64,000 nt of DNA from Prochlorococcus marinus str. MIT 9211 (lineage in GTDB: Bacteria > Cyanobacteriota > Cyanobacteriia > PCC-6307 > Cyanobiaceae), in contig NC_009976.1 in the NCBI RefSeq assembly GCF_000018585.1, forward strand, positions 1,049,982-1,113,981, read 5' to 3'. Every line of letters starts with the position of its first letter. Position 1 is the stretch's first letter. This document shows positions 5,514 to 43,852 of the stretch, in pieces. The notes under the pieces are model-generated. The model ran no database searches, had not been told where the DNA came from, and saw nothing but the letters and a program-made list of their open reading frames with translations. The position numbers and the translations under genes are program-made.

Positions 5514-6035
5514 CTAAATTCCTGACATCTCTTGCTTAAGCTGCTCAGACCATTGAGATATTCGCGCGTCTGTCATATCTGACTCACTATCTTCATCAAG
5601 AGGGAGGCCACAAAACACATCTCCAATAGCACTCTTTGACTCATCAAATGTATATTCCTTTGTACTTACATAACCAACCATTGTTGCTCCAGCCTTTTTA
5701 AAAAAGCGGTGAAGCTCTTCCATTGCATCGCAATAGTTCTCAGTATAAGTAGATGAATCACCCAAACCAAAAATTGCCACTTTCTTACCAGAAAGATTTA
5801 GGCTGCCTATCTCTTCAAGGAGAGCGTCCCATGCTGTGCCAGATCTTTCTGAATCAGCTCCAGTATTCCAAGTAGGAATTCCACAGATAATTCCTTCATG
5901 ATTGGTAAATTCGTTTAAATCATCAACATCAGACATATCTCTAGGAGATTCTGCTCCATCAAGCAAGCCATGAAGCCTTTCAGCTATATCCTCTGTCTTA
6001 CCAGTAGTTGTTGCGAAGTAAATGCCTACAGTCAT
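5514..6035 (-). CDS. isiB: Flavodoxin
   Basis: 173 residues from the ATG at 6035; a TTG three codons upstream is less likely. The FMN phosphate loop 'ATTTGKTE' is at about residues 7-14. The first isoalloxazine-stacking loop is 'GIPTWNTGA' (about 55-63) and the second 'GLGDSSTYTENYCDA' (about 91-105) has the stacking Tyr. It is a long-chain flavodoxin, as in other cyanobacteria, and replaces ferredoxin as PSI electron acceptor under iron stress. It sits downstream of a pcb gene on the same strand, as isiB sits behind isiA elsewhere, but a terminator lies between them and a 12-bp inverted repeat abuts its start codon. Confidence 0.95.
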   Translation of the reverse strand: MTVGIYFATTTGKTEDIAERLHGLLDGAESPRDMSDVDDLNEFTNHEGIICGIPTWNTGADSERSGTAWDALLEEIGSLNLSGKKVAIFGLGDSSTYTENYCDAMEELHRFFKKAGATMVGYVSTKEYTFDESKSAIGDVFCGLPLDEDSESDMTDARISQWSEQLKQEMSGI

Positions 6036-6037
6036 GT

Positions 6038-6080
6038 GAATCAACTAATAACATATTTGTCATAAATCATTAGTTGATTC
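6038..6080 (-). promoter_or_regulatory. 12-bp inverted repeat abutting the flavodoxin start codon
   Basis: The arms gaatcaactaat (6038-6049) and attagttgattc (6069-6080) are perfect reverse complements separated by 19 bp. The inner arm ends two bases from the flavodoxin ATG. If the transcript starts upstream, the 5' leader would fold into a hairpin covering the ribosome entry site; alternatively the palindrome is a repressor site. No U-run follows it, so it is not a standard terminator. Confidence 0.55.
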
Positions 6081-6230: not shown

Positions 6231-7316
6231 TCAAGATTTAATAGTAAAGGTGGCTGTCTTTTCATTTCCTATAGCACTAGTGACACTCTTGAAGTCAAAG
6301 CCTAAGGCTCTAAGGGCATGCCAGAAATGACCTTGAAGGAAGAAGAAGCCTAGATAATAATGCACATTAGCCAAGGCAGCTCTAGTGGAATGCCCCCAAA
6401 AAGCAGTCGCATCAGATAAATCTCCAGTATCTATCCAATATGGTGAAACTGAAAATTTAAATTCAAGTGGCTCACCATACCAAGCTTCTGGATAAACAGT
6501 GGTATTAGAAGCACACCAGAAAGCTGCAACAATAGCCATCCAACCAATGCCAGCTAGTGACCAAGAAAGTACTGCTTCAGCTGAAAGAAGTTCTGCTCCT
6601 TTAAACTTACTCCATTCACCTAGTCTTTTATCTTCCCAAGGGGTTGAGCCTGCAACTATATGAAAAGCACCCCCAGTAATCTCAACAAAAGCTAAGAAAG
6701 CATGGCCACCCATAACATCTTCAAGACTATCAATAGCAAGAAAGTCAAACTGCCTTTCCCAAATCATTGACAAGTCAAGATTGTAATTAACCTGGCGAAT
6801 TGCTCCTACTGCAGGATCATAAATTCCGTGAATTCTCGCCCATTCAACAAACCAAATACATGCAACACCAAAAAATATAAGGTGGTGGCCAAGTATGAAG
6901 GTCTGATTATCAGGGTTATTCCACTCAAGCTTAAATTTCTTAGCTTGTAAGACTTCACTATCTTCTACATTCTCCTCAAATAGGATTGCATGAAGAAGTC
7001 CTCCTCCTCCATAAACCATTGAGAAGATAAGGTGAAAAATTGCAATGGTTGCAACACCAACCCCTGTCCAAACTCCAGCTTCATCAAAGCCAAGCCCAAT
7101 AGAAGCAAGATGTGCCAGAAATAGAGAGCTTTGATGACCCATAGGTATTTCTGGGTTATATCTGGCTAGCTCCCAAAGAGTGCTGCCACCAGCCGCAAAG
7201 CAGATCAAGCCCGTATGGCCTATATGAGAGGCAATAAATCGGCCAGAGCGGTTGGTAACCACAGAATTACCAGCCCACCATCCATAGGTAACTTCTGGAT
7301 TTCCATAGGTCTGCAT
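6231..7316 (-). CDS. pcb: Chlorophyll a/b-binding antenna protein Pcb (copy 1)
   Basis: 361 residues, six membrane helices, CP43/IsiA superfamily. It starts MQTYGNPEVTYGWWAGNS like the other two copies. Likely chlorophyll ligands are the His residues in HTGLICF, MGHQSSLFLAHL, FILGHHLIFFG, GGHAFLAF, HIVAG and QGHFWHALRALGFDFK. It lacks the large lumenal loop E of CP43. It differs from copies 2 and 3 by a longer insertion near helix 5 (STPWEDKRLGEWSKF). It forms part of the divinyl-chlorophyll antenna in thylakoids; which photosystem it serves cannot be shown here. A conserved element lies 48 bp upstream and flavodoxin follows downstream. Confidence 0.95.
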   Translation of the reverse strand: MQTYGNPEVTYGWWAGNSVVTNRSGRFIASHIGHTGLICFAAGGSTLWELARYNPEIPMGHQSSLFLAHLASIGLGFDEAGVWTGVGVATIAIFHLIFSMVYGGGGLLHAILFEENVEDSEVLQAKKFKLEWNNPDNQTFILGHHLIFFGVACIWFVEWARIHGIYDPAVGAIRQVNYNLDLSMIWERQFDFLAIDSLEDVMGGHAFLAFVEITGGAFHIVAGSTPWEDKRLGEWSKFKGAELLSAEAVLSWSLAGIGWMAIVAAFWCASNTTVYPEAWYGEPLEFKFSVSPYWIDTGDLSDATAFWGHSTRAALANVHYYLGFFFLQGHFWHALRALGFDFKSVTSAIGNEKTATFTIKS

Positions 7317-7363: not shown

Positions 7364-7403
7364 TCAATAAATATGCGCAGAATAGTTAAAGGTCTTTATT
7401 TAG
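7364..7403 (-). promoter_or_regulatory. Shared pcb upstream element, copy 1
   Basis: On the plus strand it reads tcaataaatatg...gaatagttaaaggtctttatttag. Matching copies lie at 9405-9443 and 11242-11281, each 48-52 bp before a pcb ATG. Conservation is far above the surrounding DNA. It probably contains the promoter or an activator site for coordinated pcb expression. Confidence 0.7.
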
Positions 7404-7897: not shown

Positions 7898-8116
7898 ATG
7901 ATTGATTTCTCGCATTTGCTGGATTTCGCAACGCAACTACCTCATCCATCAGATATAGGTTTAGTAAAACCATCAGGTGGGTTCCAACTTGTACCAGTTA
8001 TTTTTGGAATACTTGCAATAATTCAAGTATCTCAATTCCATTGGTATGCAAGAGACTGTAACGATCCAGAAAAGTTTGAAGGAACGGAAAGACAAAAATT
8101 ATCATCACGTTCTTGA
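7898..8116 (+). CDS. Pcb-island small membrane protein, type A
   Basis: 72 residues from the ATG at 7898. The N-terminus contains 'LDFATQLPHPSDIG' and 'KPSGGF', followed by one hydrophobic helix (about residues 30-47, LVPVIFGILAIIQVSQF) and a short acidic/basic tail. It is clearly paralogous to the gene at 9733 and shares the helix and 'VSQF..Y..D.NDP' end with the gene at 9470. I do not recognise a named photosystem subunit in it. All three are found only between the pcb genes in this window. A good terminator follows 57 bp downstream. Confidence 0.8.
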   Translation: MIDFSHLLDFATQLPHPSDIGLVKPSGGFQLVPVIFGILAIIQVSQFHWYARDCNDPEKFEGTERQKLSSRS

Positions 8117-8172
8117 AGTCAAATTCATAAAAGCTTTTAAAGCTAAGTTTAATTATTTAGATCTTTCCAAAT

Positions 8173-8204
8173 AAAAAGGCAGAGAATTTTTCTCTGCCTT
8201 TTTT
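8173..8204 (+). terminator. Bidirectional Rho-independent terminator
   Basis: AAAAAGGCAGAGA (8173-8185) pairs with TCTCTGCCTTTTT (8191-8203) around a short loop, with a T-run on the plus strand and an A-run upstream that serves the opposite strand. It terminates the type A small gene. Confidence 0.85.
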
Positions 8205-8221
8205 GTGTCTAATTTCAGTAT

Positions 8222-8252
8222 TAACCCCCCCTGCGAAAGCAGGGGGGGGTTA
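8222..8252. terminator. Very GC-rich hairpin with GAAA tetraloop
   Basis: TAACCCCCCCTGC - GAAA - GCAGGGGGGG(G)TTA is an almost perfect stem with ten G-C pairs and a GNRA-type tetraloop, in an otherwise AT-rich region. It lies between convergent genes (small protein and pcb copy 2) just after a normal terminator. No T-run follows on either strand, so it may be an RNA stability element or processing barrier rather than a classical terminator. Confidence 0.6.
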
Positions 8253-8303
8253 GCTAAACCAAGATAATGTTTAGGTCATTTTCGAAGGGCTCAGAGCCTT
8301 TAT

Positions 8304-9353
8304 TTAAAGAGTCCTTGGAACTCCGAAAGGACCATTTGTATCTCTCAATCGCTTGAAGTCAAAGCCCATAGCTCTTAATGCATGCCATAAATGTCCTTGA
8401 ATAAAGAAAAATCCAAAGTAGTAATGCACATTAACCAAAGCAGCCCTAGTGGTATGGCCCCAGAACGCAGTTCCTCCAGGAACTGTGTCTATCCAATAAG
8501 GAGCTACTCCAAATTTAAACTGAAGAACTTCTCCATACCAAGCTTCTGGATAAACAGTTGTGTTTGTTGCAGCCCAGAAAGCAGCAACACATGCCATCCA
8601 GCCAATACCTGCTAGTGACCAAGAAAGTATTGCTTCAGCGGACAGTAAACCTTTGCCTTTGAATTTTGTATAAGTGCCAATTTGCTTTGTTGCTATATGG
8701 AAAGCACCTCCTCCGAGCTGGAAGAAAGCTAAGAAGGCATGTCCACCCATTACATCCTCAAGGCTATCAATAGCTAGAAAATCAAATTGATGGTTCCAAA
8801 TCTGGGTAAGGTCAAGGTTGTAGTTGACTTGGCGTATTGCATCAATAGCAGGATCATAAATTCCATGGATCCTGGCCCATTCAACAAACCAAATATTCGC
8901 AACACCAAAGAAAAGCAAATGGTGACCAAGAATAAAAGTTTGGTTGTCTGGGTTATCCCATTCCAATTTAAATTTTCGAGCTTGTGGTACTTCTGACTGC
9001 TGCATATCTCCTGTGAAATAAACAGAGTGCAAAAGTCCTCCTCCCCCATAAACCATGGAGAGAATCAAGTGAAGTATTGCAATATTTGCCACACCTACAC
9101 CTGTCCAAACTCCAGCATCATTGAAACCAATGCCGACTGATGCTAAGTGAGCAAGAAAGAGAGAGCTTTGATGTCCCATTGGCAGGGAAGCGTCAAAGCC
9201 AGCTAGTTCGACAAGTGTGGCTGCACCGCACCCAAAGGCAATAAGTCCAGTATGAGCTGCATGAGCAGCAATGAATTTGCCTGAGCGGTTGGTGACTCCA
9301 GAATTACCAGCCCACCACCCGTAGGTGACATCTGGGTTTCCGTAGGTCTGCAT
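8304..9353 (-). CDS. pcb: Chlorophyll a/b-binding antenna protein Pcb (copy 2)
   Basis: 349 residues, six-helix Pcb/IsiA family. It starts MQTYGNPDVTYGWWAGNS and has the same ligand pattern as copy 1 (HTGLIAFG, MGHQSSLFLAHL, FILGHHLLFFG, GGHAFLAFFQLGGGAFHI, QGHLWHALRAMGFDFK). It lacks the insertion of copy 1 near helix 5. Its ATG lies 52 bp downstream of a copy of the shared pcb element, and the region is divergent from the small gene at 9470. It binds divinyl chlorophylls in the thylakoid membrane. Confidence 0.95.
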   Translation of the reverse strand: MQTYGNPDVTYGWWAGNSGVTNRSGKFIAAHAAHTGLIAFGCGAATLVELAGFDASLPMGHQSSLFLAHLASVGIGFNDAGVWTGVGVANIAILHLILSMVYGGGGLLHSVYFTGDMQQSEVPQARKFKLEWDNPDNQTFILGHHLLFFGVANIWFVEWARIHGIYDPAIDAIRQVNYNLDLTQIWNHQFDFLAIDSLEDVMGGHAFLAFFQLGGGAFHIATKQIGTYTKFKGKGLLSAEAILSWSLAGIGWMACVAAFWAATNTTVYPEAWYGEVLQFKFGVAPYWIDTVPGGTAFWGHTTRAALVNVHYYFGFFFIQGHLWHALRAMGFDFKRLRDTNGPFGVPRTL

Positions 9354-9404
9354 AATTTCTTTTTGAGCGAAAAGGCGCTATTTCCCATGAACACTACATG
9401 GAGG

Positions 9405-9443
9405 TCAATTAATATGTACGGAATCGTTAAAGGTTTTTATCTA
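9405..9443 (-). promoter_or_regulatory. Shared pcb upstream element, copy 2
   Basis: On the plus strand it reads tcaattaatatg...gaatcgttaaaggtttttatcta. It matches the elements at 7364 and 11242 with few substitutions. It lies between pcb copy 2 and the divergent small gene at 9470, so it could serve both. Confidence 0.7.
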
Positions 9444-9469
9444 AGAGAAATAAAAAAACATTTTTCAAC

Positions 9470-9694
9470 ATGCAACGAGATGAGATTTTCTGTGCTCTTT
9501 ATGGTTATGTAGAGGGAAATTTTCCAAAACATCTAGATTCAATGCTAGAAATCTTTCACTCAACCCCTTTAATGGCAACCATTACCGTTGGTGGATTCAA
9601 CCCACTAGCCGCAATATTCGGCCTAATTACCGTTTTCCAAGTAAGTCAATTCATCTATTACGGTTTTGATGCAAACGATCCTTCAAAGGATTAA
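9470..9694 (+). CDS. Pcb-island small membrane protein, type B
   Basis: 74 residues from the ATG at 9470; an internal ATG at 9542 (50 residues) has the same attcaATG context as the next gene and may be the true start. The C-terminal half 'GGFNPLAAIFGLITVFQVSQFIYY..DANDP' is one hydrophobic helix plus a short tail and aligns with the type A protein, but the LDFATQLPHPSDIG block is missing. It starts 27 bp from the pcb copy 2 upstream element, divergently, and precedes the type A-like gene by 38 bp. Function unknown; a photosystem or antenna accessory role is inferred from position only. Confidence 0.7.
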   Translation: MQRDEIFCALYGYVEGNFPKHLDSMLEIFHSTPLMATITVGGFNPLAAIFGLITVFQVSQFIYYGFDANDPSKD

Positions 9695-9732
9695 TTAATT
9701 TTTCAAAGAACAAAACTTTCTATCCAAATTCA

Positions 9733-9927
9733 ATGATTGATCCAACTCACATTCTTGATTTCGCCACCCAATTACCGCATCCATCTGACATAGGCATAAT
9801 CAAACCATCAGGAGGCTTTAATTTGGGGGCTGCTCTATGTGGCTTAGGAGCATTTTTTGGTGCTTCCCAATTTTTTTACTACTCGGATGATTCCAAGAGG
9901 ATTGATCCTTGGGCCAAAAGAGATTAA
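9733..9927 (+). CDS. Pcb-island small membrane protein, type A paralogue
   Basis: 64 residues from an ATG. 'MIDPTHILDFATQLPHPSDIG' (as two blocks) and 'KPSGGFNLG' are nearly identical to the gene at 7898. A glycine/alanine-rich helix (GAALCGLGAFFGASQFFYY) and a short tail ending DPWAKRD follow. The nearly invariant N-terminus suggests a binding surface, and the helix is more variable. It is the second gene of a tandem pair and converges with pcb copy 3, sharing its terminator region. I do not recognise the family. Confidence 0.8.
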   Translation: MIDPTHILDFATQLPHPSDIGIIKPSGGFNLGAALCGLGAFFGASQFFYYSDDSKRIDPWAKRD

Positions 9928-10134: not shown

Positions 10135-11193
10135 CTAAGAAGCAGTTGACTCTGTCAAACCACCTATTGCCTGAGCAATCCTTCTGAAATCAAAGCCCAA
10201 TGCTCTTAGAGCATGCCATAAATGGCCTTGTAAGCAGAAGAAAGCAAAATAATATTGAACATTGACTAGAGCTGCCCTAGTTGTGTGTCCAAAAAAGTAT
10301 TTGCAGTCAGAAACATCTCCTGTATCTACCCAATAAGGAGAAATGCCGAACTTAAGCTCTAAAGGTTCTCCATACCATTCAGTGGGATAGACAGTTGTGT
10401 TTCCAGCAGCCCAAAACGCTGCAACTAAGCCCATCAAGAAAAGGCCAGCTAATGACCAAGAAAGTACTGCTTCTGCTGAAAGCAAACCCTGGCCTTTAAA
10501 TTTGGTGTATTCACCAATTTGCCGAGTTGCTATATGGAAAGCACCACCACTGATCTGTAAGAAAGCTAAGAATGCGTGACCACTCATTACGTCTTCAAGA
10601 CTGTCTATCTTAAGGAAGTCAAATTGGTGGCCCCAAACCATTCCGAAATCCCCATAACCAGGGAAAACTGTGCGAACAGCTTCAACGGCGGGGTCATAGA
10701 TGCCATGAACTCTGGCCCATTCAACGAACCAGATATTTGCAACACCTAAGAAGATCAAATGATGACCAAGAATGAAAGTGAGATTGTCAGGGCTGTCCCA
10801 TTCAAGCTTAAACTTATCAACTCGACCAATCGGTCCACTTTGTAGATCTGGATCGAAAAGTAATGAGTGAAGAAGCCCAGCACCGCCATAGACCAAGGAG
10901 AAGATCAGATGGAAAATTGCGATTGTGGCAACTCCTGCTCCTGTCCATACACCAGCTTCGTCAAAGCCAATGCCTAGAGAAGCTAAATGGGAAAGATATA
11001 TAGAGCTTTGATGCCCCATAGGGATTGAAGAATCAAAACGGGAAAGCTCCCAAAGACAACTTGCACCAGTTGCGAAGCAAATAATTCCTGTATGTCCAAC
11101 ATGAGAGCCGATAAATCGACCTGCCCTGTTGGTGACTACAGAATTACCAACCCACCACCCATAGGTGACATCTGGGTTTCCGTAGGTCTGCAT
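10135..11193 (-). CDS. pcb: Chlorophyll a/b-binding antenna protein Pcb (copy 3)
   Basis: 352 residues, six-helix Pcb/IsiA family. It starts MQTYGNPDVTYGWWVGNS. Ligand-bearing segments are HVGHTGIICF, MGHQSSIYLSHL, FILGHHLIFLG, SGHAFLAFLQISGGAFHI and QGHLWHALRALGFDFR. It is more diverged from copies 1 and 2 in the loop after helix 3 (DPDLQSGPIGRVDKF) and in the loop near FPGYGDFG. The shared element lies 49 bp upstream. It is an antenna protein of the thylakoid membrane; photosystem assignment is not possible from sequence alone. Confidence 0.95.
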   Translation of the reverse strand: MQTYGNPDVTYGWWVGNSVVTNRAGRFIGSHVGHTGIICFATGASCLWELSRFDSSIPMGHQSSIYLSHLASLGIGFDEAGVWTGAGVATIAIFHLIFSLVYGGAGLLHSLLFDPDLQSGPIGRVDKFKLEWDSPDNLTFILGHHLIFLGVANIWFVEWARVHGIYDPAVEAVRTVFPGYGDFGMVWGHQFDFLKIDSLEDVMSGHAFLAFLQISGGAFHIATRQIGEYTKFKGQGLLSAEAVLSWSLAGLFLMGLVAAFWAAGNTTVYPTEWYGEPLELKFGISPYWVDTGDVSDCKYFFGHTTRAALVNVQYYFAFFCLQGHLWHALRALGFDFRRIAQAIGGLTESTAS

Positions 11194-11241: not shown

Positions 11242-11281
11242 TCAATTGATATGGCCAGAATAGTTAAAGGTCTTTATTTAG
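11242..11281 (-). promoter_or_regulatory. Shared pcb upstream element, copy 3
   Basis: On the plus strand it reads tcaattgatatgg...gaatagttaaaggtctttatttag, nearly identical to copy 1 over gaatagttaaaggtctttatttag. It is placed 49 bp before the pcb copy 3 ATG. Confidence 0.7.
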
Positions 11282-12010: not shown

Positions 12011-12214
12011 ATGACATCATCCACTCAAATAACAACTGAATCAGGCAATCGTCAGAATGTATTCCCTGTCGAAGCCCAACCTGAATTACTAGAAAACTAT
12101 CCTGGTTATATAGAAGACGCAGAAAAGGCAAATGGCAGATGGGCAATGATTGGATTTATTGCAATGCTAGGGGCCTATATAACCAGTGGGCAAATAATTC
12201 CAGGGATATTCTAA
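12011..12214 (+). CDS. hli: High-light-inducible protein, 67 residues
   Basis: ATG at 12011, in frame to the TAA at 12212-12214. A polar N-terminal extension of about 35 residues is followed by the Hli helix 'AEKANGRWAMIGFIAMLGAY' with the canonical ExxNGR chlorophyll motif and the end 'SGQIIPGIF'. Its stop overlaps the next hli start by one base (TAATG), so the two are translationally coupled. Probably part of a stress-induced hli operon. Confidence 0.92.
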   Translation: MTSSTQITTESGNRQNVFPVEAQPELLENYPGYIEDAEKANGRWAMIGFIAMLGAYITSGQIIPGIF

Positions 12215-12333
12215 TGAATAATAGTTACTGGAAAAACGCCGAAATAACTAATGGCAGACTAGCCATGGTTGGATTTATTGCAGCTTTAATTAATTACACT
12301 TTATTTGGCTGGATAATCCCAGGCTTCTTCTAA
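12214..12333 (+). CDS. hli: High-light-inducible protein, 39 residues
   Basis: ATG at 12214 overlaps the previous stop. The sequence carries 'AEITNGRLAMVGFIAALINY' with ExxNGR, and ends 'GWIIPGFF'. A single-helix chlorophyll-binding protein of the thylakoid. Last of the three tandem hli genes; no clear terminator hairpin follows. Confidence 0.92.
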   Translation: MNNSYWKNAEITNGRLAMVGFIAALINYTLFGWIIPGFF

Positions 12334-13019: not shown

Positions 13020-13083
13020 CTAGCCCAAGTCCCCGTTCCATGGCTTGAGTCGAACTGCGCCTTCGAATAAGAAGGTGAACGCT
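13020..13083 (-). promoter_or_regulatory. Glutamine-II riboswitch (Downstream-peptide RNA)
   Basis: On the minus strand the leader folds as P1 CGTTC/GAACG (13077-13081 with 13034-13038) enclosing P2 CCTTC/GAAGG (13071-13075 with 13060-13064), followed by GCGCAGTTCGACTCAAGCC. A pseudoknot CAAG/CTTG (13044-13047 with 13026-13029) ends just before the ribosome site. This order and the sequence blocks match the Downstream-peptide motif, a glutamine-binding riboswitch of marine cyanobacteria that precedes short ORFs. It should control translation of the 33-residue peptide. The covariance score was not computed. Confidence 0.82.
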
Positions 13084-13113
13084 TATGTAGTTGTTGCTAC
13101 ATAATTATTATCC

Positions 13114-40894: not shown

Positions 40895-43852
40895 ATGACT
40901 AGTGAACAGAAAAAACCAACTTTACTTCTTGTTGATGGGCATTCACTGGCTTTTAGAAGTTTTTATGCATTTAGCAAAGGAGGTGAAGGTGGTCTTGCAA
41001 CGAAAGAAGGCCTACCGACAAGTGTTACTTATGGTTTTCTCAAAAGCCTGCTAGATAACTGTAGAGCAATTAGTCCTCAGGGAATAACAATTGCATTTGA
41101 TACTCCCGAGCCAACATTTCGGCACAAAACTGATCCAAATTATAAAGCGAATAGAGATATTGCTCCTCCAATATTCTTCCAAGATTTAGAACAGCTACAA
41201 ATAATCCTTGAGAAGGATCTCAACCTCTCAATATGTACTGCTCCTGGATATGAAGCTGATGATGTACTTGGGACATTAGCGAACAAAGCAGCTGACAATG
41301 GTTGGATAGTCCGTATTCTTTCTGGAGACAGAGATCTCTTTCAATTAGTAGATGATGAACGAAATATAGCTATAATGTATATGGGTGGTGGCCCTTATGG
41401 TAAGAGTGGCAACCCTACTCTAATAAATGAAGCTGGTGTCAAGACAAAGCTTGGTATCGTACCAACAAAAGTCATAGACTTTAAAGCTCTAACTGGAGAT
41501 AGTTCAGATAATATTCCTGGTGTCAAAGGCGTGGGACCAAAAACAGCAATCAATCTTCTAAATGAGAATAAGGATCTTGATGGTGTATTTGCCTCCTTAG
41601 AACTATTAGAATCACAAGGAGAGAAAGCTTACAAAGGAGCAATCAAAGGTGCTTTAAAAGCAAAGCTTAAGCAAGGCAAAGACAATGCCTATCTTTCACG
41701 CCATCTTGCAGAGATTCTAGTAGAGGTACCTATTGAGCCTCTACCATCTTTTAAATTAAGTGAAATCAACAGAGAAAATCTAGAAAACTCTCTTCAAAAG
41801 CTTGAATTAAATAGCCTAGTTCGACAAATGCCAGCTTTTGTTGCCACATTCTCACCTGGTGGTTTTAGTGCCCACAAAAAAACTATTAATACAAAAAGCT
41901 CAAATACCTCAAGCAAAAACCAACAAAATAGAGAAAATTTGCCAGACGAGAAAGAAGGCATACCAACTATTATGCCTCAAATTATCAGCAATAATTCTGA
42001 ACTTTCTGTCCTTATAGAGAACCTATTGCAACTTGACGACCCTATACAGCCTGTCGCCATTGATACAGAGACTACAAGTTTAAATCCATTTCAATCTGAA
42101 TTAGTGGGAATAGGTCTTTGCTGGGGGGAAAGACCCGAACAAATCGCATATATTCCTTTAGGTCACATAACTGAAGACCTATTTGAAGACCAGTCAAGTA
42201 ATCTACAGCTACCATTAATAGATGTAATAAAAGGATTATCTCCTTGGCTTGGCAGTTCAGAGCACCCAAAAGTACTTCAAAACGCCAAGTATGACCGATT
42301 AATATTTCTCCAGTATGGGATCCCTTTAGAAGGCGTAATAATGGACACACTGCTGGCTGATTACCTTTGTGATGTAACTCATAGGCATAGCCTCGAGGCA
42401 ATGGCAAAAAGAGAATTTGGGTTTACGCCAACAAACTTTAATGAAATTGTTGGCAAAGACGAAACCTTCAAGAATGTAAGCATCAGTACAGCAAGCCTCT
42501 ACTGTGGCATGGATGTATATCTAACAAGAAAACTCTATTTTCTGAAGAAATCCAATCTAGAAGAAATGGGTCAAAAGCTAATCGAACTTCTCGAAAAAGT
42601 AGAGCAGCCTCTTGAACCAATACTTGCAGATATGGAGGCTAGAGGTATCCGGATTGATATTCCTTATTTAAAAGAGCTGTCAATTGAGTTAAACAAAGCA
42701 CTTAAAAACATAGAAAAAAGCGCCTACAAAATTGCAAAAACTGATTTCAACCTGAGCTCTCCGAAGCAATTAGGGGAAGTACTATTTGAGCAATTAGGCC
42801 TTGACAAGAAAAAGTCTAGGCGCACAAAAACTGGTTGGAGTACAGATGCCAATGTGTTAGAGAGGCTTCAAGGCGATAACCCTATTGTTCCTTTAGTTAT
42901 AGAACATAGAACACTTAGCAAGTTACTTAGTACATATGTAGAAGCCCTGCCTCAACTAGTTGAGGCACAAACTGGAAGAGTACATACTGATTTCAATCAA
43001 GCAGTTACTGCAACAGGAAGGTTGAGTAGCAGTAATCCAAACTTACAAAATATCCCTATCCGCACTGAATTTAGTCGTCGTATCCGCAAAGCTTTTCTGC
43101 CTAGAGAAGGCTGGCAATTATTAAGCGCTGACTATTCACAAATAGAGCTTAGGATTCTTGCACACCTTTCGGGAGAAGCCTCCCTTCAAGAGGCCTATAG
43201 GAATGGAGATGATGTTCATGCATTAACGGCAAAAATCTTACTAGATAAAGAATCAATTACTTCTAATGAGAGGCGTCTAGGGAAAACAATCAACTTTGGA
43301 GTAATTTATGGGATGGGTGTTCAACGTTTTGCTCGTTCAACAGGAGTATCGCAATCAGAAGCTAAAGACTTCTTGAACCGATACAAAGAGAGATATACAA
43401 ATGTTTTTTCATATTTAGAGCTTCAAGAGAGACTGGCTTTAAGTAAAGGCTTTGTAGAAACCATACTTGGCAGAAGACGTCACTTTCATTTTGATAAGAA
43501 TGGCTTGGGTCGCCTACTAGGGAAAAACCCCTTAGAAATAGATCTAAAGCTGGCTCGTAGAGCTGGAATGGAAGCTCAACAACTTCGAGCTGCAGCTAAT
43601 GCACCAATCCAGGGCTCTAGCGCAGATATTATTAAAGTGGCCATGGTTAAGCTCGACAAAGAATTAAAAAATGAAGGATTGCCAGCCAACTTACTTTTAC
43701 AGGTACATGATGAGTTGGTTCTAGAGGTAGATCCAACAGCAACTGAACAAGTTAAGGCTTTAGTAATTCATACAATGGAAAAGGCTGTTTTGCTTAATGT
43801 TCCACTAGTTGTAGAAGCATCCGTAGGCAAGAATTGGATGGATGCAAAATGA
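40895..43852 (+). CDS. polA: DNA polymerase I
   Basis: 985 residues from an ATG. The 5' nuclease domain (about 1-300) includes '[16 protein letters not shown]' and '[18 protein letters not shown]'. The 3'-5' exonuclease keeps its motifs: 'AIDTETTSL' (D and E), 'QNAKYDRL', 'YCGMD'. Polymerase motif A '[19 protein letters not shown]', motif B '[14 protein letters not shown]' and motif C '[11 protein letters not shown]' are intact. It fills gaps in replication and repair. Its last four bases overlap the start of cysS (ATGA). Confidence 0.98.

Follow-up and report, generated by a model that had tools for sequence, protein, structure and literature searches.

The Pcb antenna proteins have been divided into photosystem I (PSI)-type, photosystem II (PSII)-type, and IsiA-like groups (PMC2644788), and the associations reported for them include PcbG with PSI in SS120, PcbA with PSII in MIT9313 and MED4, and PcbB with PSI in MIT9313 (PMC8635728). 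There are low-light types of Prochlorococcus with seven or eight pcb genes (PMC7852507). In the published account, the pcb genes expanded once the LLIV branch had split off, in the LLVII grade, and stayed in the later low-light clades, while the high-light ancestor lost all of them except pcbA (PMC11559063). Among photosystem-antenna complexes described elsewhere, the PSII-Pcb megacomplex of Acaryochloris has a PSII dimer flanked on either side by a row of four Pcb antennas (PDB 7YMI and 7YMM; PMC12661325), and in the cryptophyte PSII-ACPII complex (PDB 8XR6) the subunit Psb-gamma connects the PSII core with the peripheral antennas, with one homologue reported, in another cryptophyte (PMC11169493). 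In the literature that we reached, no structural account was found of how low-light types attach so many antennas, and the family of small proteins described here bears on that question.

The window, that is, the whole stretch of 64,000 nucleotides analyzed here (C1:1049982-1113981 of a one-contig genome of 1,688,963 bp), contains three minus-strand pcb genes, all exceeding the TIGR03041 cut-off of 335 bits, which by gene order against an SS120-sized genome are of the PcbD type (6231 to 7316; 553 bits), the PcbB type (8304 to 9353; 541 bits), and the PcbH type (10135 to 11193; 525 bits). Three plus-strand small genes lie among them, an arrangement proposed by the sequence-only reading and borne out by ORF positions and TIGR03041 scores: the first (7898 to 8116) is divergent from the PcbD-type gene and convergent with the PcbB-type gene, the second (9470 to 9694) is divergent from the PcbB-type gene, and the third (9733 to 9927) is convergent with the PcbH-type gene. 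None of the three small proteins itself matches TIGR03041. A fourth copy was found at C1:1308766, about 249 kb beyond the cluster in the window and divergent from another pcb gene. That a small gene is repeated beside each antenna gene, as had also been claimed, is true of these four pcb genes and not of the rest of the seven pcb starts that we count in the source genome when up to two mismatches are allowed. The stretches up to 1.5 kb from the seven pcb genes make up about 1.4% of the source genome, and all four small-gene copies fall there.

The three window genes and the fourth genomic copy belong to one family. The N-terminal block LDFATQLPHPSDIG...KPSGGF is present in both the 7898 and the 9733 genes, as described beforehand, and a GGF-helix-SQFxxY core is found in all three window proteins, with SQFxxY followed by group-specific tails instead of forming the ending that had been assumed. 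A search of the fetched loci, some of them overlapping, returned 179 matching reading frames (112 distinct), which we arrange in groups whose names (A, A2, B1, B2, D, and two-helix) were coined in this analysis. The 9733 gene belongs to group A (64 amino acids with N-block, one helix, and tail SDDSKRIDPWAKRD; group tail SDDSKR[IV]DPWAK), to which A2 is similar in its helix while having a short tail. The 7898 gene belongs to group B1 (72 amino acids with N-block, one helix, and tail ARDCNDPEKFEGTERQKLS; group tail DCNDPEKFEGTERQK), and B2 proteins end in, e.g., NDPSKRFQR. Group D, with the 9470 gene, has a short N-terminus without the N-block, starting like STPLLATITVGGFN, and one helix, and the two-helix proteins follow the pattern ...SYRWKQFxGVQ...AGPEKIFFPLG. 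Since some two-helix relatives (L145:4696-4968, L146:4682-4966, and L148:4737-5021) carry a D-type start, group D may have arisen by shortening from relatives of the two-helix kind. The A and B1 proteins of the source genome have 83% in common over their first 29 residues (the N-block) and 33% over the helix, and a His in the N-block is nearly invariant. Hydropathy gives one hydrophobic stretch, neither it nor the charge pointing to a particular membrane orientation, and the AlphaFold model of a one-helix protein places a helix at residues 31 to 55, with a mean pLDDT of 91 over residues 31 to 50 and 72 over residues 51 to 60; the arms are of low confidence (overall pLDDT 71.1, pTM 0.34), and the two-helix protein is poorly predicted (pLDDT 57.7, pTM 0.33). 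The small proteins would be membrane proteins, presumably located in the thylakoid.

The genes are small, and by eye no ribosome-binding sequence is evident upstream of them, as one would expect if they were spurious ORFs or a conserved non-coding RNA. This explanation is very improbable given the conservation at the protein level in 90 genomes and within-group dN/dS medians of 0.05 to 0.15. Taken over pairs with 0.05 < dS < 3, the medians are 0.048 for A (505 of 741 pairs), 0.054 for A2 (35 of 45), 0.067 for B1 (210 of 210), 0.091 for B2 (28 of 36), 0.091 for the two-helix group (9 of 15), and 0.154 for D (27 of 28). Between the 7898 and 9733 genes, 12 of the first 29 codons are identical, 12 differ synonymously, and 5 differ non-synonymously, and this excess of synonymous changes indicates that selection holds the protein. 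The small genes thus look protein-coding and under strong purifying selection, the argument being strong for A, A2, and B1 and less so for D. It is doubtful where the 9470 gene starts: several relatives begin at the Met equivalent to an ATG at 9542, which is possibly the true start, while the longer reading also exists in two relatives (L036 and L081) and some have neither Met.

To describe the surroundings of the family, we used 65 loci fetched by a short family motif regardless of pcb, 64 of which bear the name Prochlorococcus in their titles and one that of a single-cell isolate of Synechococcaceae. Of the 99 copies in these loci and the window, 78 have a pcb gene at most 1.5 kb away, or 49 of 65 when only the copy that each locus was fetched for is considered, and both counts are inflated by close relatives and do not represent independent events. 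Proximity differs by group: 38 of 39 A copies, 10 of 10 A2, 21 of 21 B1, and 8 of 8 D copies are near pcb (A2 and D being found mostly as companions of A or B1 in the same locus), compared with 1 of 6 two-helix, 0 of 9 B2, and 0 of 6 unclassified copies, five of which end like B2. The B2 and two-helix copies that sit away from pcb show that some groups do without such linkage. Eight B1 copies (L111, L114 to L118, L121, and L122) follow a pcb gene on the same strand, 21 to 70 bp past the end of its alignment, a further B1 gene lies 17 bp past the stop codon of the pcb gene at 1344165 to 1345250 in a relative with a genome of 1,751,080 bp, and all eight D copies start 117 to 201 bp from a divergent pcb gene (with the longer start used in the window). 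The presence of three pcb genes and three small genes in one region, together with the unlinked B2 copies, could also mean that these are lineage-specific genes hitch-hiking in a genomic island with the pcb cluster. We consider this improbable, since pcb-adjacent copies occur at other genomic sites (L154 and L156, as well as the B1 copies that follow pcb in the eight loci above), purifying selection is strong, and the family is absent where extra pcb genes are absent.

Several other features were recorded around the pcb genes. A flavodoxin gene at 5514 to 6044 (minus strand; Pfam, 82 bits) flanks the cluster, with a look-alike at the same place in L152 and L155, and suggests an iron-stress neighborhood. 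In three loci (L131:3806-5765, L134:669-2650, and L149:26-1810), a gene matching Pfam Rubrerythrin, which we take to be acsF, and a 2Fe-2S ferredoxin gene are found no more than a few kb from family members or the pcb cluster; another neighbor, without a Pfam match, is presumably ndhM. A conserved element that reads roughly AAATAAAGACCTTTAACTATTC in the direction of pcb is present at 7382 to 7396 and 11260 to 11274 (both minus strand), with a variant recognized by eye near 9427 to 9441. In 738,553 bp of loci, 39 of its 41 strict occurrences lie 80 to 89 bp before pcb start codons, and a relaxed form of it stands before 79 of 136 pcb starts and has another 20 matches that are not near a recognized pcb start; the pattern was derived from the same sequences in which it was counted. 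Judged by this placement, the element looks like a pcb-specific control site. It is absent within 400 bp upstream, on their own strand, of all small-gene copies in the 65 loci and the window, which gives no support to the idea of a promoter element shared by small genes and pcb. A Glutamine-II riboswitch aptamer lies at 13024 to 13084 (minus strand; 72.2 bits against a cut-off of 33), and sub-threshold matches to IsrR, the isiA antisense RNA, lie opposite two pcb genes on the plus strand (6754 to 6923, 30.7 bits; 8789 to 8960, 25.5 bits; cut-off 52), which may reflect just the coding homology of pcb and isiA.

With respect to the Pcbs that the small genes adjoin, a tree built from 27 Pcb/IsiA proteins that seven genomes encode places 10 of 10 family-adjacent Pcbs in one derived group of 13 rows (support 94/98, not starred), and none of the other 14 rows, which comprise PcbA types, two basal proteins, LLIV genes, the PcbC/G type, and IsiA, adjoins a family member. 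When their gene order is compared with the accession numbers that PMC2644788 gives for SS120, the derived neighbors are of the B, D, E, F, and H types. By best match to the same 27 proteins, the 162 pcb frames in the 65 loci divide into 159 derived, 2 PcbA-like or basal, and 1 on the PSI/IsiA side, and all 108 frames that have a family copy at most 1.5 kb away match the derived group best, in a test that is one-sided given that only 3 of the 162 are non-derived. Because these neighbors cluster with PcbA, they are probably PSII-side Pcbs, judging from the tree and the published group names. A PSI partner had been considered because of a likeness of the third pcb gene to IsiA, and was dropped on finding that gene among the derived, PcbA-related Pcbs. 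In SS120 proteomics, PcbD and PcbE are both raised under azaserine (PMC5451487); they are the two Pcbs that adjoin B1 genes in the SS120-sized genome of the 1,751,080-bp relative, a coincidence that is suggestive only.

In a profile search, 90 of 400 genomes from the source's taxonomic family were positive for the small proteins, and a class-wide search found them in 8 of 388 genomes, all within that same taxonomic family; with the two-helix profile, 64 of 221 genomes gave a match, which in 31 genomes covered most of the profile. We counted exact pcb starts (MQTYGNP codons) in the same 400 genomes and observe that all 74 genomes with at least two such starts carry the family. Outside genus g18, so do 5 of 11 genomes with exactly one start; the six negative ones are 51 to 77% complete, and in G065, which is one of the six, the two-helix profile picks up a two-helix fragment. 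Eleven family-bearing genomes have no exact pcb start. By contrast, the family is found in none of the 68 genomes of g18, of which 65 have exactly one exact start and 3 have none, and in none of the 5 genomes of genus g30. The small genomes and single pcb start of g18 point to the high-light type, and g30 would correspond to the LLIV type; two of its genomes (G031 and G095) have two pcb-type genes each, plus a CP43-like gene. Widespread homologues in genomes without pcb would have spoken against a Pcb partner, and no relative turned up in any genome type that is known to be without pcb. Such restriction to lineages that have the antenna is what a linker protein calls for, and here it is narrower, the family being limited to part of the pcb-bearing genomes. 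The expectation that occurrence would track pcb copy number is borne out as a trend (Spearman's r = 0.59 over the 74 genomes, kinship uncorrected) and not one to one, with the family count lower than the pcb count in 60 genomes, equal in 13, and higher in 1.

The history of gain and loss was followed on a tree of 19 genomes built from one long conserved protein (window positions 40895 to 43852), which we take to be DNA polymerase I, with the drawn root at the midpoint. Three g18 genomes nest inside the family-bearing group, beside G080 (support 99/98), and the distribution of the family needs two changes, forced by starred branches, on a tree in which several backbone forks are supported at 83 to 94 and G010 forms a long branch. 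Taking the Synechococcus-type and LLIV-type side as outside, we read the two changes as one gain and one loss. The family thereby follows the same path as the published expansion and loss of pcb genes, to which it adds a second component. Since gain and loss make up only two events, the co-occurrence is phylogenetically thin.

Searches of curated collections gave no significant Pfam, NCBIfam, PHROG, or PDB match to the family, and no Psa or Psb family was matched when 30 members were scanned. This agrees with the earlier statement that no named photosystem subunit can be recognized, the sole photosystem match being PsbJ at an E value of 0.59. That match and other PDB chains at E values of 0.27 to 1.2 are weak and were taken as chance, as were a match of one member to TMEM37 (E = 0.025) and matches of one member each to three NCBIfam models (E = 0.021 to 0.085). 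A database match with a known unrelated function would have told against a role as Pcb partner, and none was found, no database family giving a function. Neither phage records (two-helix query) nor viral contigs contained relatives. We found no description of the family in the open-licence titles and abstract openings searched, and the accessible main text of PMC11559063 has no mention of linker, hypothetical, small protein, or transmembrane. Within the open-licence literature and databases searched, the family is apparently undescribed so far.

Small Psb and Psa subunits are of similar small size and have a single helix. This resemblance would fit PSII or PSI core subunits peculiar to low-light Prochlorococcus that tune the reaction center without touching Pcbs, with linkage reflecting co-regulation of photosynthesis genes, and so would the B2 and two-helix genes, which lie mostly away from pcb and in some cases near acsF-like and ferredoxin-like genes. 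We hold this to be unlikely in view of the lack of a Psb/Psa family match or significant PDB chain in the above searches, the absence of the family from high-light and LLIV types, and neighbors that are exclusively derived Pcbs. Alternatively, the proteins could be assembly or regulatory factors acting transiently on the extra Pcbs in pigment delivery, Pcb insertion, or quality control, which is consistent with the operon-like and divergent arrangements with pcb, with family genes being fewer than exact pcb starts in 60 of the 74 genomes, and with the nearly invariant His, which could bind pigment. Paralogues with conserved, differing tails would rather suggest stable, partner-specific positions, and no enzyme or chaperone family was matched, so that we give this alternative little weight.

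Because of the genomic linkage and the matching gain and loss, we favor reading the family as partners of Pcbs, more precisely as lineage-specific, mostly single-helix membrane proteins that would serve the extra Pcbs of low-light Prochlorococcus as accessory subunits, be it as linkers or in assembly, with a probability of about 0.55; the accessory function, and a role as a physical linker, are what we infer. The original proposal of a Pcb linker or assembly partner is thereby narrowed to derived Pcbs, the only ones that the family adjoins, and the 68 high-light-type and 5 LLIV-type genomes without it speak against a partner of Pcbs in general. Counted against a linker are also the LLIV types, which have two pcb-type genes and published Pcb complexes (PMC8635728) without the family, and the B2, unclassified, and two-helix copies, of which 0 of 9, 0 of 6, and 1 of 6, respectively, are near pcb. 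As accessory subunits, the proteins would dock or stabilize derived Pcbs, with the constant N-block (LDFATQLPHPSDIGL-KPSGGF) binding a surface that all such complexes have in common, either the photosystem core or a face shared by the Pcbs, while in each group the helix and tail, which are divergent, would fit particular Pcbs and give partner choice. A second Pcb set (B/D/E/F/H type) could in this way be attached beyond the basic PcbA-PSII arrangement, and the two-helix group may be another version of the same part. More tentatively, and with rather less confidence than doubt, these might be the first dedicated Pcb linkers, exchangeable single-helix adaptors with one constant docking block and a helix and tail matched to particular derived Pcbs, whose invention let low-light Prochlorococcus enlarge its PSII antenna and which were lost as the high-light clades originated. 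In any case, a small conserved family offers concrete targets, both as proteins to seek in purified complexes and as densities to expect in a cryo-EM map.

Compared with known systems, the family differs from its genomic neighbors and probable partners, the Pcb/IsiA antenna proteins (TIGR03041), which are six-helix chlorophyll proteins of about 350 amino acids (PMC8635728). Hli/CAB-type proteins are likewise small with one helix, and one is encoded in the same region of the window (12139 to 12333); this Hli-like ORF (12139 to 12330) scores 25.2 bits against the Chloroa_b-bind cut-off of 22.3 (PF00504) and serves as a positive control, whereas no family member matches that model. With regard to the Acaryochloris megacomplex, neither A, B1, and two-helix proteins nor the family profiles significantly match any PDB chain. 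By description, and with no sequence link claimed, the family resembles Psb-gamma, which is also lineage-specific with a single transmembrane helix, and which is unlike the family in being much longer (residue 234 is cited), eukaryotic, and bound to LHC-type antennas (PMC11169493). Psb-gamma is a precedent for the evolution, within one lineage, of a single-helix linker that serves the PSII antenna of that lineage, and low-light Prochlorococcus may have taken a similar course.
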